Origin: Ignavibacteriota bacterium | GTDB lineage: Bacteria; Bacteroidota; Ignavibacteria; UBA10030 | NCBI GenBank assembly: GCA_022616555.1 | Contig: JAKEEG010000007.1 | Span: forward strand, 1-64,000 | DNA length: 64,000 bases | Reading direction: 5' to 3' | Shown here: positions 31,796-61,730 of the stretch, in pieces | Layout of the letters: each line of letters begins with the position of its first letter | Position numbering within the stretch: position 1 is the stretch's first letter | Notes under the pieces: generated by a model | Database searches by the model: none | Told to the model about the DNA's origin: nothing | What the model saw: the letters and a program-made list of their open reading frames with translations, nothing else | Program-made: the position numbers and the translations under genes

Positions 31796-32152
31796 ATGCT
31801 CGAAAACTACGTCCCCATATTCCTCATGATTGCCGCCGGGTTCGGTTTCGGCCTCGTCATGATGAAGGTCAACGAGTGGCTCGGACCCAAGAGTCCCAAC
31901 GCCGAAAAGCTTTCCACGTACGAGAGCGGTATGGAGCCGGTACGGAGCGCACGGGAGCGTTTCTCTGTTAAGTACTATATGGTGGCGATGCTGTTCATCA
32001 TTTTTGATATCGAGGTTGTGTTCCTGTACCCGTGGGCGGTGTCGTTCAAAGAGTTGGGGATGGCGGGGTTCATCACGATGACGGTGTTTATTACGATTCT
32101 GCTGGTTGGGTTTTATTATATCTGGCGGAAGGGAGCGTTAGAATGGGATTAG
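31796..32152 (+). CDS. nuoA: NADH-quinone oxidoreductase subunit A
   Basis: Membrane subunit of respiratory complex I. The 118-residue protein has three membrane helices. The conserved [25 protein letters not shown] loop and [16 protein letters not shown] are intact. Its last ten bases overlap nuoB. Confidence 0.96.
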
Positions 32153-44680: not shown

Positions 44681-44725
44681 CAAGAGTTTCAATTCGCAAT
44701 TGGCAATCCGAAATTCGAAATTGCC

Positions 44726-45256: not shown

Positions 45257-45685
45257 TTACTTCCTGCGCGTGCCGAACACAATGTCGATGATCTCAGCAA
45301 CACGATGGATGTCGCTCGCCGGAATCTCCTTCAGCTTGCGGAGCACTTTTTCATAGCGCTCGCGCTCTGCTTCTGTTACGTGCCCGGGCATGGAGAAATA
45401 CACCGGGTTGACATCCTTCTTGTCCGCCGTCGGGTGCTGTGGACCGCGTTTCTCGATCCGCCATTCACCGTCCTTGCCCAGGTCGATGTAATATCCCAGC
45501 TTCTTCTCAATGGAAGTAATCTGCTTGGGCCTGACGCCGTCGGTGCGGCCAGTGCGCCAGTTGGAGACCGTGCTCGCTCGAATGCCGATTTGTTCGGCAA
45601 GGGCGGAATCGGACTTGTGTTCCATCCTCAGGATTTCGTCCCACAGGATGAGGAACTTTTTCGTCGGTATTTTATTCATTTTCAT
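45257..45685 (-). CDS. XRE-family phage repressor-like regulator
   Basis: A 142-residue DNA-binding protein. The helix-turn-helix lies near residues 20-50 (HKSDSALAEQIGIRASTVSNWRTGRTDG). The C-terminal part is helical (TEAERERYEKVLRKLKEIPA, IHRVAEIIDIVFG) and lacks the Ser/Lys peptidase domain of LexA/CI. Induction would therefore depend on the ImmA protease next door rather than RecA-stimulated self-cleavage. The start is taken at the ATG at 45685, with 45679 as alternative. It faces the rightward promoter at 45757. Confidence 0.88.
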   Translation of the reverse strand: MKMNKIPTKKFLILWDEILRMEHKSDSALAEQIGIRASTVSNWRTGRTDGVRPKQITSIEKKLGYYIDLGKDGEWRIEKRGPQHPTADKKDVNPVYFSMPGHVTEAERERYEKVLRKLKEIPASDIHRVAEIIDIVFGTRRK

Positions 45686-46056
45686 AGTGACTGAATATAC
45701 ATTAGCGAAAGTCAAAAAGCAAGGAAAAAAATAATTAAAAATTTTTCATTTTTCACTTGACTTTTAAAAATGACCGTATTATATTATAATAAAATGTAGT
45801 AATTAAATGTAATTCAATGTCTTTCCATCGAAAAAACACCTGTTTTTATAGCAGTTTTATACTGCCAGCGCCGCATAGCCTTACCCGCTTTCCCGGACTA
45901 TTACCGCTGACTACACAAAACCGCAAAGCAGAATAACCTTAATTTTAGCGGGATTTTGCATCAAAATGTATTCCCTGCCTTCGAGACAGTGTAGGGAGAA
46001 CCTTTTCTATAGCCTTTTATCTATCACCTATTTCCTAACACCTATACCCTAAAGCA
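45686..46056. other. Divergent control region of the phage island
   Basis: 371 bp between repressor and zinc-ribbon gene. The left 120 bp are AT-rich with the rightward promoter and an inverted AAAGTCAA...TTGACTTT pair (about 45708 and 45757), likely operators. The right 220 bp hold no gene I recognise and no good ribosome binding site before 46057. Confidence 0.5.
45757..45785 (+). promoter_or_regulatory. Rightward promoter opposite the repressor
   Basis: TTGACT and TATATT are separated by exactly 17 bases. The -35 overlaps the TTGACTTTT arm of an inverted repeat whose other arm (AAAGTCAAAA, about 45708) lies near the repressor start. This is consistent with repressor operators. Confidence 0.6.
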
Positions 46057-46599
46057 ATGCTCTGGACTTGCGGACAAATTATCGATGGCGTGCAGGAATT
46101 CTGCGACGCGTGCTGGGAGTGCAGCAGTCGCTGTGCTCAATGTAAAGAATGGTTCAATAAAGAGCAGGTAGGTCCGGCCGGACTCTGTGCTGAATGCGAA
46201 AACGAACGAATGCATCAAATGACGTGCTATGAATGCAGCCACGATTGGACTGCGTGGGGATTTTCAATCCGCTGCCCGAAATGCGAGTCGTTCAATATTG
46301 TTGTAGGTCCATTGGACGAGTTGTTTTACGAGAAGATCCTGGAGAAAAAGCAGATCGAGTATCTCGAACGGCTCCAATCCAAGACACTACAAAGCGAGAA
46401 AATGATGAGGGAGACGGGACAGAAGGAAAGAGCAATCGGTAGCCGCAAGGACTTTGCGTTTTCTGCATCCCGCCATCTTGAGCTTGTCGAAGGATCGGCG
46501 GGACAGTCTGCGGCAAAATTACGGGTGGAACCGGCTGAGGAGCGTTGCAGTATAATATTCGAGCGAATCCACTCACCGCAACTAAGAGAACTGCTATGA
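46057..46599 (+). CDS. Zinc-ribbon protein of the phage island, hypothetical
   Basis: A 180-residue protein. The first 85 residues hold many Cys pairs (CDACWECSSRCAQC, GLCAECENERMHQMTCYECS, IRCPKCESFNIV), so two or three zinc ribbons are likely. A helical, charged segment follows. Residues about 137-150 (SASRHLELVEGSAG) are encoded by a dispersed repeat, so the C-terminal 45 residues may be of recent origin. The function is unknown. It could be an early regulator. The stop overlaps the start of the next gene (ATGA). Confidence 0.6.
   Translation: MLWTCGQIIDGVQEFCDACWECSSRCAQCKEWFNKEQVGPAGLCAECENERMHQMTCYECSHDWTAWGFSIRCPKCESFNIVVGPLDELFYEKILEKKQIEYLERLQSKTLQSEKMMRETGQKERAIGSRKDFAFSASRHLELVEGSAGQSAAKLRVEPAEERCSIIFERIHSPQLRELL
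46467..46503. repeat. Dispersed repeat CTTGAGCTTGTCGAAGGAT inside the zinc-ribbon gene
   Basis: TCCCGCC and GGCGGGA arms flank CTTGAGCTTGTCGAAGGAT. It is a widely seen bacterial text-like repeat, here translated as RHLELVEGSAG. Confidence 0.7.
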
Positions 46600-46853
46600 A
46601 AAACCGACTCAAACGCCAACGTAACGAAGAACTCCGGAAGCTCTATTTTGGGCTCATCGACCCAAAACGAGAGGGCGGCAAGCACACAAAAAACGAAGCT
46701 TTTGAGAAAGTGATGGAAGTAGCACGCAATAAATACTTTCTCACCTCAGAGATTACTGTCAGGAGGATAATTTTTAAGTACGGATTCTACAAACAACCCG
46801 AGCAAGAAACTTATGCGGCGGTTGCTCCTGAGGAAAATGTAAAACTTGTATAA
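46596..46853 (+). CDS. Small basic hypothetical protein of the phage island
   Basis: An 85-residue protein starting MKNRLKRQRNEELRKLYFGL, translation-coupled to the zinc-ribbon gene. It is rich in Arg and Lys, with a possible DNA-binding helical region (FEKVMEVARNKYFLTSEITVRRIIF). I do not recognise the family. Its stop lies seven bases before the first operator palindrome at 46860, so it could bind or respond to that array. This is inference from position only. Confidence 0.55.
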   Translation: MKNRLKRQRNEELRKLYFGLIDPKREGGKHTKNEAFEKVMEVARNKYFLTSEITVRRIIFKYGFYKQPEQETYAAVAPEENVKLV

Positions 46854-46859
46854 AGAAAG

Positions 46860-46894
46860 TACCAAAATTGTACAAACAAATTACAAATCTTGTA
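46860..46894 (+). promoter_or_regulatory. Operator cluster 1: two 13-bp palindromes
   Basis: TACCAAAATTGTA (46860-46872) and TACAAATCTTGTA (46882-46894) start 22 bp apart, i.e. two helical turns. They fit the consensus TACAA-N3-TTGTA. Promoter 1 begins immediately after. Confidence 0.7.
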
Positions 46895-46924
46895 TTGCGC
46901 ACCCCGGGTTGCAGTGTGTATATT
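46895..46924 (+). promoter_or_regulatory. Promoter 1 downstream of operator cluster 1
   Basis: TTGCGC and TATATT with an 18-base spacer; the -35 abuts the second palindrome. Its layout copies promoter 2 at 47040. Confidence 0.4.
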
Positions 46925-46982
46925 GGGCAACTGAAAAAATCTTCGCGTTCTTTGCGCCTTTGCGATGCTCTTTTGCTGTCTA

Positions 46983-47039
46983 TACAAAATTTGTACAAAC
47001 AAAATACAAAATTGGTACAAACAAATTACAAATCTTGTA
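46983..47039 (+). promoter_or_regulatory. Operator cluster 2: three 13-bp palindromes
   Basis: TACAAAATTTGTA (46983), TACAAAATTGGTA (47005) and TACAAATCTTGTA (47027) start exactly 22 bp apart. About 30 bp ending in this cluster repeat those of cluster 1 (TACAAACAAATTACAAATCT then TGTATTG). Confidence 0.75.
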
Positions 47040-47068
47040 TTGACAAACGCCTTTTCCTATTGTATATT
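47040..47068 (+). promoter_or_regulatory. Promoter 2, strong sigma-70 type, for the late genes
   Basis: TTGACA and TATATT with a 17-base spacer; the -35 begins at the base after the last palindrome. This is the only strong promoter before the packaging genes. Confidence 0.65.
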
Positions 47069-47102
47069 GGCACATAATTAATTTTTCGTTATTACATTTT
47101 AG

Positions 47103-47294
47103 TGTATTTTTTACAAAAGCCGCAAAATCACCCCGGACACCGACGTTCCTCAAGTCGATCTTGAAGTAACTCCGGTTGTATAACAAGAAATTGCCGCATA
47201 CACAGAAGCGCCTGCCAACGCGTTCAGACGAACGCAGTCCGGGCGCACAATCGTACACAAATGCCGCTCGGGTAGCGCACGAGTCGAAGTCTCC
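47103..47294 (+). pseudogene. Degenerate protein-like stretch
   Basis: One frame reads KITPDTDVPQVDLEVTPVV, then a TAA, then QEIAAYTEAPANAFRRTQ and SGRTIVHKCRSGSARVEVSF before a TGA. It has no start codon. The composition looks coding, so it may be the remnant of a lost gene, or chance. Confidence is low. Confidence 0.25.
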
Positions 47295-47358
47295 TTCTGA
47301 GCTTCGTTTGCCCTCGGGCCCACGGCCCTTCTCCGGGCGGCACTGCGGCTGATCGACT

Positions 47359-47434
47359 TGTCATTCTGAGGAGTCCGCTTTATGGACGACGAAGAATCTC
47401 ACGATAACAAAGGGATTCTTCGCTCAGAATAACA
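47359..47434. repeat. TGTCATTCTGAG inverted repeat
   Basis: TGTCATTCTGAGGAG and the partly complementary CGCTCAGAATAACA enclose GAAGAATCTC and GGGATTCTTC. It is a known text-like dispersed repeat type, lying 28 bp before the small terminase gene. Confidence 0.65.
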
Positions 47435-47461
47435 GTGAATTGCGATTTAGAAAGGAACACC

Positions 47462-47806
47462 ATGCCAAAATCAACTTCAACCCGGCTTCAACGCACGTAT
47501 GCGAAAAAAGTGAAAGCGTTGCGTGAACGAACGACTGCAACCAAACCCAAACGTCTCGTGGGAACCAATATCCGAAAGCTCATCACCGCAAACGACATCG
47601 ACGGCGCGCTCGATGTGATTCGGTACCACATCAAGCAGAAAGACGTGCGCGTGGCGCTGTACCTGCTCGACCAGTACTTCGGCAAGCCCGCGCAGCAAAC
47701 GGAGCTTTCCGAAGCACCCAAGAAACCAGTGAATCTCAGACTGACGAGTGATTTCCTTGACAAGCTCTCTCAAAAATACTTTCCCAAACCTCAGCAAAAC
47801 GATTGA
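47462..47806 (+). CDS. Probable terminase small subunit
   Basis: A 114-residue basic protein (MPKSTSTRLQRTYAKKVKAL). It has a helical middle (NIRKLITANDIDGALDVIRYHIKQKDVRVALYLLDQYFGKP) that could form the oligomerisation part. A position directly before and overlapping the large subunit gene supports a DNA-recognition role in packaging. Sequence evidence alone is weak. AAAGGA lies 7 bases before the ATG. Confidence 0.55.
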   Translation: MPKSTSTRLQRTYAKKVKALRERTTATKPKRLVGTNIRKLITANDIDGALDVIRYHIKQKDVRVALYLLDQYFGKPAQQTELSEAPKKPVNLRLTSDFLDKLSQKYFPKPQQND

Positions 47807-49097
47807 ACACATTGCAGACACAACACTTTTCCAGTATCAACGCGAGTGGCTCTTTGACACCTCACGCTTCAAAATCGCGTGCAAAGCACGGCAAATCGGC
47901 CTCTCGCTTTGCCTCGGCTTGGAAGGGCTTCTGGACGTCCTCAACCGCCAGCCGGTCTTCTACGTCTCGCGCACGGAGAGGCAGAGCATCTACCTGCTGG
48001 AAAAATTTTATCGCTGGTGCGACTATCTGCTGGAGTCTGGCGTGCCTCTGGAGTTCGACTATCGCAATCGCAACGAGTGCCGCTTGCTCGTCGATGGCGT
48101 TGGCGTGGACGTCAAAAGCCTTACGAGCCATGCGGCAGGCGACGAAGGCTATACGGGCAACGTCTATCTCGATGAGTTCGGATTGCACGAGAACGACGAG
48201 CAAATCTTCCGCTCGCTCTTCCCGACGATCTCGTGGGGCTACAAGATCCGCATCGTCTCGCGGCCGTTTGGGCAGTCCAACAAGTTCTACGAAATCTTCA
48301 CCGACGCCGAGCGCTACCCCGACTTCAAGCGCTACCGGTTCGATATTCACCGGGCAATCGGAGACGGACTCAGCATCGACGTCGATGAGCTGCGGCGAAA
48401 TTTTGATGACGAAGGATTTCGAGAAAACTATCTGTGTGAATTCATCGACGAATCAACCAGCTATCTGCCGTATCAGCTCATTCGGAGCTGTGTTGGCGAC
48501 CTGTATGCCGAACCCGATGGAGGACATTCCGGGACAGGCGATTCTCGCGGGGCGCGTTATGTCGGTGTCGATGTTGGAAGAAAACGGGATCGAACGGTGG
48601 TATTCGTTCTGGCTCAACTAGATGACCGGTTTGTTACAACGCGCATCGAGCGATTAAAAGATGAACGATTCGACACGCAGAAGGCATTTATCCGGCATCT
48701 CATCAACGAAGAAGGCATCACGCGCGGCTGCATCGACGCGACGGGATTGGGGATGCAGTTGGCGGAGGAGTTGCAAGATGAGTTCGGATTCATCGAGCCG
48801 GTGACGTTCACCGCCGACTCAAAAGAGCGCATGGCTGTTCGCACCAAGTGCGTGTTTGAGAATCGGCAGATACAAATTCCGGATGACAATGATTTGATTT
48901 CGAGCATTCACTCGATACGCAAGCTCGTTACGCCGTCCAACAACATACGCTTCGACGCCGAGCGCACAGCGGATGGCCACGCGGACGATTTCTGGGCGCT
49001 TGCCCTGGCACTCGAGGCTGCCACCGGACGAGACAACATGCCGCAGTTGAGTTTTATTGAGACGGGGAAACAGGATGTCTTGTGGGATGAGAAATAA
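47748..49097 (+). CDS. Phage terminase large subunit
   Basis: DNA-packaging motor ATPase and nuclease of 449 residues. The ATPase domain begins LFQYQREWLFDTSRFKIACK, with a Walker A-like ARQIGLSLCLG and Walker B VYLDEFGLHENDEQIF. The RNase H-like nuclease carries YVGVDVGRKRDRTVVFVLA, RGCIDATGLGMQLAEEL and HADDFWALALALEA, which hold its acidic residues. It starts with GTG at 47748 inside the small-subunit gene; a slightly later start is possible. Confidence 0.88.
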   Translation: MISLTSSLKNTFPNLSKTIEHIADTTLFQYQREWLFDTSRFKIACKARQIGLSLCLGLEGLLDVLNRQPVFYVSRTERQSIYLLEKFYRWCDYLLESGVPLEFDYRNRNECRLLVDGVGVDVKSLTSHAAGDEGYTGNVYLDEFGLHENDEQIFRSLFPTISWGYKIRIVSRPFGQSNKFYEIFTDAERYPDFKRYRFDIHRAIGDGLSIDVDELRRNFDDEGFRENYLCEFIDESTSYLPYQLIRSCVGDLYAEPDGGHSGTGDSRGARYVGVDVGRKRDRTVVFVLAQLDDRFVTTRIERLKDERFDTQKAFIRHLINEEGITRGCIDATGLGMQLAEELQDEFGFIEPVTFTADSKERMAVRTKCVFENRQIQIPDDNDLISSIHSIRKLVTPSNNIRFDAERTADGHADDFWALALALEAATGRDNMPQLSFIETGKQDVLWDEK

Positions 49098-60659: not shown

Positions 60660-60910
60660 ATGAAAACACTAATTTTACTACTGTTTTTGCCGTTCCCGCT
60701 CTTGCACAGAGTAGTGCGGAGGGTCAATCGGCAATCTCCAATCGCCAATCGGCAATTTCAACTGACACCGTCCTCGTCTCCCGCAAGGTAGTCGAGAGCA
60801 GCATAGAGACGCTCCAGAAGGTGAACGAGCAGGAGCGGGCGGGCGTTGAAGAATTAAAGAAGGAAGTGGTGGTGAGCGTTTTATGCAATCACTTTTTATT
60901 AGCAGAAATA
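60660..60910 (+). pseudogene. Broken first copy of the small secreted coiled-coil gene
   Basis: Starts MKTLILLLFL like the intact gene at 61368, but one base is missing near 60690, so the frame runs into a stop at 60788. Restoring a base gives VPALAQSSAEGQSAISNRQS, then DTVLVSRKVVESSIETLQKV and NEQERAGVEELKKE, which matches the other copy. The match ends at about 60876, where unrelated sequence (VVVSVLCNHFLL) begins. It is a truncated tandem duplicate. Confidence 0.75.
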
Positions 60911-61367: not shown

Positions 61368-61730
61368 ATGAAAACACTAATTTTACTACTGTTTTTAGCT
61401 GTTCCTGCTTTTGGGCAGAGTAATGCGGAGGGTCAATCGGCAATCTCCAATCGCCAATTGGAAATCGGTTCCGATACTGTCCTCGTCTCCCGCTCGGCGG
61501 TAGAGAGCAGTATTGAAACGCTGAAGAAAGTGAACGAGCAGGAGCGGGCGGGCGTTGAAGAATTAAAGAAGCAAATCGCCAGTCCGGCTCTTACTAGTAA
61601 AGAGCGACTGCAGATGCAAGTGCAAATCGAGACGGCAATTGAGAACATTATGCAGCGCGGCGCGGTCATTTGGACGCTACAAAGCGTGTTGCAGGATACA
61701 ACGCTACAAATTCTAAGCACTAAACGCTAA
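61368..61730 (+). CDS. Small secreted coiled-coil protein
   Basis: A 120-residue protein with signal peptide MKTLILLLFLAVPAFGQ. The mature part is helical: VESSIETLKKVNEQERAGVE, then ELKKQIA, then KERLQMQVQIETAIENIMQR. Residues 19-32 (AEGQSAISNRQLEIG) are encoded by the CAATCGGCAATCTCCAATCG text repeat. It sits before the lysis genes and could be a spanin-like periplasmic helper or a virion-associated protein. Neither role is proven. Confidence 0.6.
   Translation: MKTLILLLFLAVPAFGQSNAEGQSAISNRQLEIGSDTVLVSRSAVESSIETLKKVNEQERAGVEELKKQIASPALTSKERLQMQVQIETAIENIMQRGAVIWTLQSVLQDTTLQILSTKR

Follow-up and report, generated by a model that had tools for sequence, protein, structure and literature searches.

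The question raised by this locus is what two blocks of evenly spaced palindromes do directly upstream of the DNA-packaging genes of a prophage. The window, that is, the whole stretch of 64,000 nucleotides analysed here, contains between positions 44700 and 63600 a small prophage-like island that encodes packaging, capsid and lysis functions, and the large terminase, portal, protease and capsid genes were confirmed; no integrase or replication gene was recognised among the island proteins scanned. Upstream of the palindromes lie a Cro/CI-type helix-turn-helix (HTH) repressor on the minus strand (45257..45715), a cysteine-rich, zinc-ribbon-like ORF of 180 aa without a confident family (46057..46599, plus strand) and, directly adjoining the first block, an 85-aa ORF without a family match that is a candidate phage-encoded regulator (46596..46853, plus strand). 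Downstream, a non-coding leader of 393 nt (47069..47461, plus strand) extends from the second promoter to the first packaging ORF, a 114-aa protein without a family match that is assigned as small terminase by position only (47462..47806, plus strand), followed by the large terminase (47748..49097, plus strand), whose distant matches include phage B3 (about 30%). A 182-bp direct duplication (60684-60865 and 61393-61574, 84%) lies at the island's right end.

The sequence-only reading of this region had described five TACAA-N3-TTGTA palindromes, spaced exactly 22 bp apart within two clusters, each abutting a promoter of the same direction. Our pattern search returned all five where they had been placed, at 46860 (one mismatch), 46882 (none), 46983 (none), 47005 (one) and 47027 (none), and added a sixth at 46838 (TGTAAAACTTGTA, two mismatches) that had been overlooked. 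The dyads therefore form two triples, 46838/46860/46882 and 46983/47005/47027, with a step of exactly 22 bp in both and an offset of 145 bp between the blocks. Array 1 (46838..46894, plus strand), whose first dyad overlaps the 3' end of the 85-aa ORF, leads into promoter 1 (46895..46924, plus strand), which consists of a weak -35 element, TTGCGC (46895-46900), an 18-bp spacer and TATATT (46919-46924). Array 2 (46983..47039, plus strand) leads into promoter 2 (47040..47068, plus strand), with TTGACA (47040-47045), a 17-bp spacer and TATATT (47063-47068), so both promoters are present as they had been described. The proposed duplication of the unit also held, while its size, given as about 30 bp, grew to 57 bp at 88% identity. 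Shuffling did not reproduce this arrangement: sites with at most one mismatch numbered five in the local 301 bp, where shuffles averaged 0.06 and never exceeded 2, a 22-bp triple appeared in 0 of 2,000 shuffles of the same 301 bp, and in 40 shuffles of the whole window no three sites stood at equal intervals of 15-39 bp.

The arrays can also be read at half this period. In block 2, five consecutive 11-mers all start with TACAA without a mismatch (TACAAAATTTG, TACAAACAAAA, TACAAAATTGG, TACAAACAAAT and TACAAATCTTG, followed by TA and TTGACA), and block 1 carries the same series with 4 mismatches in 25 positions; each 13-bp dyad is then one 11-bp repeat plus the beginning of the next. In both blocks the repeats end 2 bp before the -35 element, with the TATATT -10 element another 17-18 bp on.

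We searched the assembly (2.99 Mb, 99 contigs) with the array pattern and found nine copies at eight loci, namely the two in the window and seven others, all of them intergenic (C83, C11, C49, C53, C59, C60 and C85). Everything reported here comes from this one fragmented assembly and from sequence only. When the nine copies were aligned on the middle dyad, all had one orientation and abutted a -35 element starting with TTG, with TATATT 17-18 bp further. Mean pairwise identity rose along the array, from 0.82 in repeats 1-2 to 0.94 in repeats 3-4 and 0.98 in repeat 5; it was 0.71 in the -35 element, 0.48 in the spacer, 1.00 in the -10 element and 0.43 in the next 18 downstream bases. A conserved array and -10 element beside a diverged spacer and flank form the pattern expected of a working promoter that would require its upstream array, although the copies may be recent duplicates, in which case the conservation partly reflects shared ancestry. 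The last site together with its promoter, in the 18-bp spacer form, matched only at array loci and never without the whole array. Three of the nine copies have a weak -35 element (TTGCGC or TTGCGG), a trait also seen in activator-dependent promoters.

Within the nine copies, all five 11-mers start with TACAA in most cases, and the TAC of the repeat is kept at 45/45, 41/45 and 43/45; a change from TACAA to TACCA recurs in either half of the dyad. The array resembles itself more closely at lag 22 (identity 0.71-0.86) than at lag 11 (0.54-0.65), and odd repeats end in TTG (or TGG), which even repeats do not. Because of these two features, two binding modes may fit, either monomers repeating head to tail every 11 bp or dimers that occupy a dyad every 22 bp. 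Response regulators of the OmpR/PhoB family offer a parallel for the first mode, as the PhoB box consists of two 11-bp direct repeats in 22 bp (PMC2648988) and the RstA box has TACA half-sites, TACATNTNGTTACA (PMC4117788). If our arrays are read at 11 bp, the pho, RstA and ompF sites share with them the head-to-tail repeats and the multiple tandem boxes beside a weak -35 element; unlike them, the array described here has five repeats with superimposed 13-bp dyads, and its 22-bp period is stronger than its 11-bp period.

The reading that we prefer, with a probability of roughly one half, is that array and promoter form an activator-dependent module through which an activator of the host lineage governs a small regulon specific to this lineage, and that the packaging operon of the prophage shares this module. 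Each block would combine a sigma70-type promoter with an adjoining upstream array to which one sequence-specific DNA-binding protein binds. That protein would most likely be an activator encoded by the host lineage; a host origin is favoured because most copies lie outside the prophage. It would occupy a single face of the helix cooperatively, with monomers aligned head to tail on the 11-bp repeats, in the manner of OmpR/PhoB-type regulators, or with dimers on the three 13-bp dyads. The dyad centres fall near -42, -64 and -86 if the spacer is 17 bp and transcription starts 7 nt after the -10 element. An activator at -42 would take up the position typical of class II promoters, from which contact with RNA polymerase at the -35 element is possible. 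The sequence-only reading had proposed a cooperative switch for the packaging genes; a protein that would bind one DNA face at these promoters fits both the geometry and the conservation, whereas a restriction of the switch to the phage does not stand, given the seven chromosomal copies.

The strongest rival explanation takes the array for a long UP element or an intrinsically curved A-tract region, which would raise promoter strength through contact with the alpha subunit of RNA polymerase and without a dedicated regulator. A/T-rich tracts in 11-bp, roughly helical, phasing do adjoin the -35 element, as in UP-element and phased A-tract promoters, and the predicted curvature of the arrays is 62-88 degrees, compared with 31 +/- 15 for shuffles. 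Neighbouring P1 promoters, moreover, differ in sequence (TTCTAAAATTCGAG, TTATAAAACTTAAG and TTTTATAAAACATAAG types) and still keep the 11/22-bp phasing relative to the -35 element, a regularity that counts in favour of the preferred reading as well. Bending alone, however, does not need the fixed TAC and the dyad TTGTA bases, and the TAC appears conserved beyond what an A-tract requires. In addition, the array, at about 55 bp, reaches to about -92, past a normal UP element, and the genome's own 16S rRNA promoter lacks such an array, on which ground an rRNA-like promoter was also rejected. We therefore consider an effect of curvature or of UP-like contacts unlikely, while placing it ahead of the other alternatives. 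As a separate observation, a 22-bp-phased promoter of the TTTTATAAAACATAAG type stands directly before a DinB-like gene in L055 (C23), at about contig position 31971.

All seven chromosomal arrays precede, on the same strand, a long folded RNA-like sequence, and the array promoter is usually in tandem with the other 11/22-bp-phased promoters. The family to which these sequences belong has at least 11 members, each about 110-370 nt long; four (C35, C1, C78 and C18) have another promoter and lack an array. Within the window, a promoter-like TTGACT-17-TATATT after a T-rich stretch (45758-45790) resembles the promoters of these array-less units (TTTTTTACTTGACA). The units were located at L005:4035-4357, L006:3859-4144 (minus strand), L008:2869-3248 (minus strand), L010:4638-4946, L011:4170-4514, L023:1979-2316, L024:2018-2302 (minus strand) and L025:1807-2113, and also in L007, L027 and L084, and the genes flanking them are ordinary chromosomal ones, for example GroEL/DnaG, ComEC and DprA, as judged by their sequences alone. 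A helix of the form TCCTAAC...GAAGGTGT / ACACCTTC...GTTAGGA closes the units; this terminal helix is common to 11 units and, with the arms registered by hand, pairs in nearly all of them, with two-sided changes at 3 of 14 pairs. The unit at C85 folds with z = -8.8 relative to shuffles. No RNA-like stretch, nor the leader in the window, matched Rfam over the gathering score, and a group I intron, a hammerhead or another known RNA was rejected on this basis; an integron attC reading of the TCCTAAC...GTTAGGA ends was likewise rejected, since the 3' GTT is not kept (CTT or ATT in several units).

The prophage packaging operon, which carries the module in duplicate, continues into a folded leader of its own: positions 47073-47462 have a far more stable predicted fold than their shuffles (z = -4.9), with an outer helix that would cover the probable ribosome-binding site of the first packaging ORF. 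The leader contains the box CCGCAAAATCACCCC (47120..47134, plus strand), and the form CCGCAAAATCRCCCC is common to the prophage leader and the leaders of the RNA units. Nine of the 11 RNA-like units (C11, C49, C53, C59, C85, C35, C1, C78 and C18) carry the motif AAAATCRCCC on their sense strand, either in the leader or in the tail, and it recurs at 47124 in the window; the unit tails also have AAACATATCGC in common.

The units are crowded with repeated palindromes, which may be substrates of a RAYT-like transposase, and such a transposase adjoins one of them (C60, L010:3318-3974). Both features would suit an array-promoter that is a dispersed repeat, spread with palindromic mobile sequences and without a regulatory role. 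Against this, the array and the -10 element are kept while spacer and flanks diverge, the order of the modules differs among loci (B-A, A-B-C, A-C and A-A), and the copies have no sharp common ends outside the promoter parts; we regard this explanation as very improbable. Replication iterons of a plasmid or phage type, which the sequence-only reading had offered as its second option, share the short direct repeats at whole-turn spacing, but here eight loci, seven of them chromosomal, carry the array always in one orientation directly upstream of a -35/-10 promoter, and among the island proteins scanned we recognised no replication initiator, so this option can practically be dismissed.

Which protein would bind the array is a further point on which the prophage itself offers candidates. 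It could encode the activator, for instance in the 85-aa ORF, similar to Mor/C of Mu, and the chromosomal RNA units would then be turned on by phage induction or parasitise it. The ORF abuts and overlaps the array, its model has three helices, possibly HTH-like, with pLDDT of about 90 over residues 31-60, and the transposable phage B3 is among the matches of the large terminase. Mor recognises two 5-bp inverted repeats whose centre lies at -43.5 (PMC4390567), and the Mor-dependent middle promoter resembles the present one in its inverted repeats near the -35 element (about -42 here), its A/T-rich upstream DNA, its phage setting and its small adjoining ORF. The array here differs from it, however, in having three phased sites, a recognisable -35 element and seven copies outside the prophage (7 of the 8 loci). 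The 85-aa ORF had no match to Mor/C or any HTH family in sequence or fold, and its model no significant structure match; Pfam gave no Mor/C match for either this or the 180-aa ORF, a search of viral contigs returned no relatives of the 85-aa ORF, and no array was found near related terminases. A phage-encoded activator is thus improbable in our estimation.

Repression is the other possibility that the island suggests, with the array as an operator of CI type or of BlaI/MecI/CopY type (TACA/TGTA) that would shut the promoters. The dyads are indeed short and have TACA...TGTA half-sites, as do BlaI/MecI/CopY operators, and cooperative arrays are common among repressors. BlaI/MecI/CopY operators nevertheless have the spacing RNYKACANNTGTMRNY, as refined for CopY (PMC7253601), with two bases between the half-sites, whereas the dyads here are TACA-N5-TGTA, occur as tandem triples and lie upstream of the -35 element, not over the -10 element or the start, so they were not assigned to this operator class. 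A CI/Cro-type prophage operator was rejected as well: the repressor's own divergent control region (45716-46056) has no array site even at two or fewer mismatches, which also makes the repressor an unlikely binder, although it had been named among the candidates. Overall, a repressor operator seems to us distinctly improbable, and we return to a host-lineage activator as the preferred reading.

The distribution of the array agrees with a lineage-specific element. The two-dyad pattern was absent from 60 relatives and the four-repeat 11-bp pattern gave only stray, unlike matches in 5 of 197 relatives, all of these genomes being from outside the genus. Conservation of the motif in related islands, the lack of which was one half of what the sequence-only reading had named as speaking against it, was likewise missing from the upstream DNA examined for terminase relatives within the class, these being distant (30-36% identical). 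A search for the large terminase in GTDB contigs returned no relatives and a scan of GTDB contigs for the exact array pattern found nothing, while the array DNA had only short weak matches among phages and plasmids; a lone viral contig with the two-dyad pattern was rejected as an AT-rich, unrelated phage. BLAST and covariance-model searches of 60 and 119 relatives with the RNA matched its own genome only, except that BLAST gave five weak matches, 24-32 bases long, in three relatives. Within the reach of these searches, the array appears to be private to this lineage.

If the preferred reading is right, what had been an oddity becomes a testable regulon, with a single array, nine promoters and a family of no fewer than 11 large folded RNA-like sequences, and natural variation among the nine arrays provides a ready mutational series for finding the binding protein. 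We tentatively propose, as a possibility well short of an even chance, that this lineage-private regulon connects the DNA-packaging operon of the prophage with chromosomal genes, at least seven in number, that would encode large structured RNAs of a new family, so that packaging and RNAs would be switched on together. It would be unusual for one control element to couple the packaging of a prophage to chromosomal RNAs in this way. The RNAs themselves would in that case either respond to the phage, in defence or as hitch-hikers, or belong to a host programme tapped by the phage.
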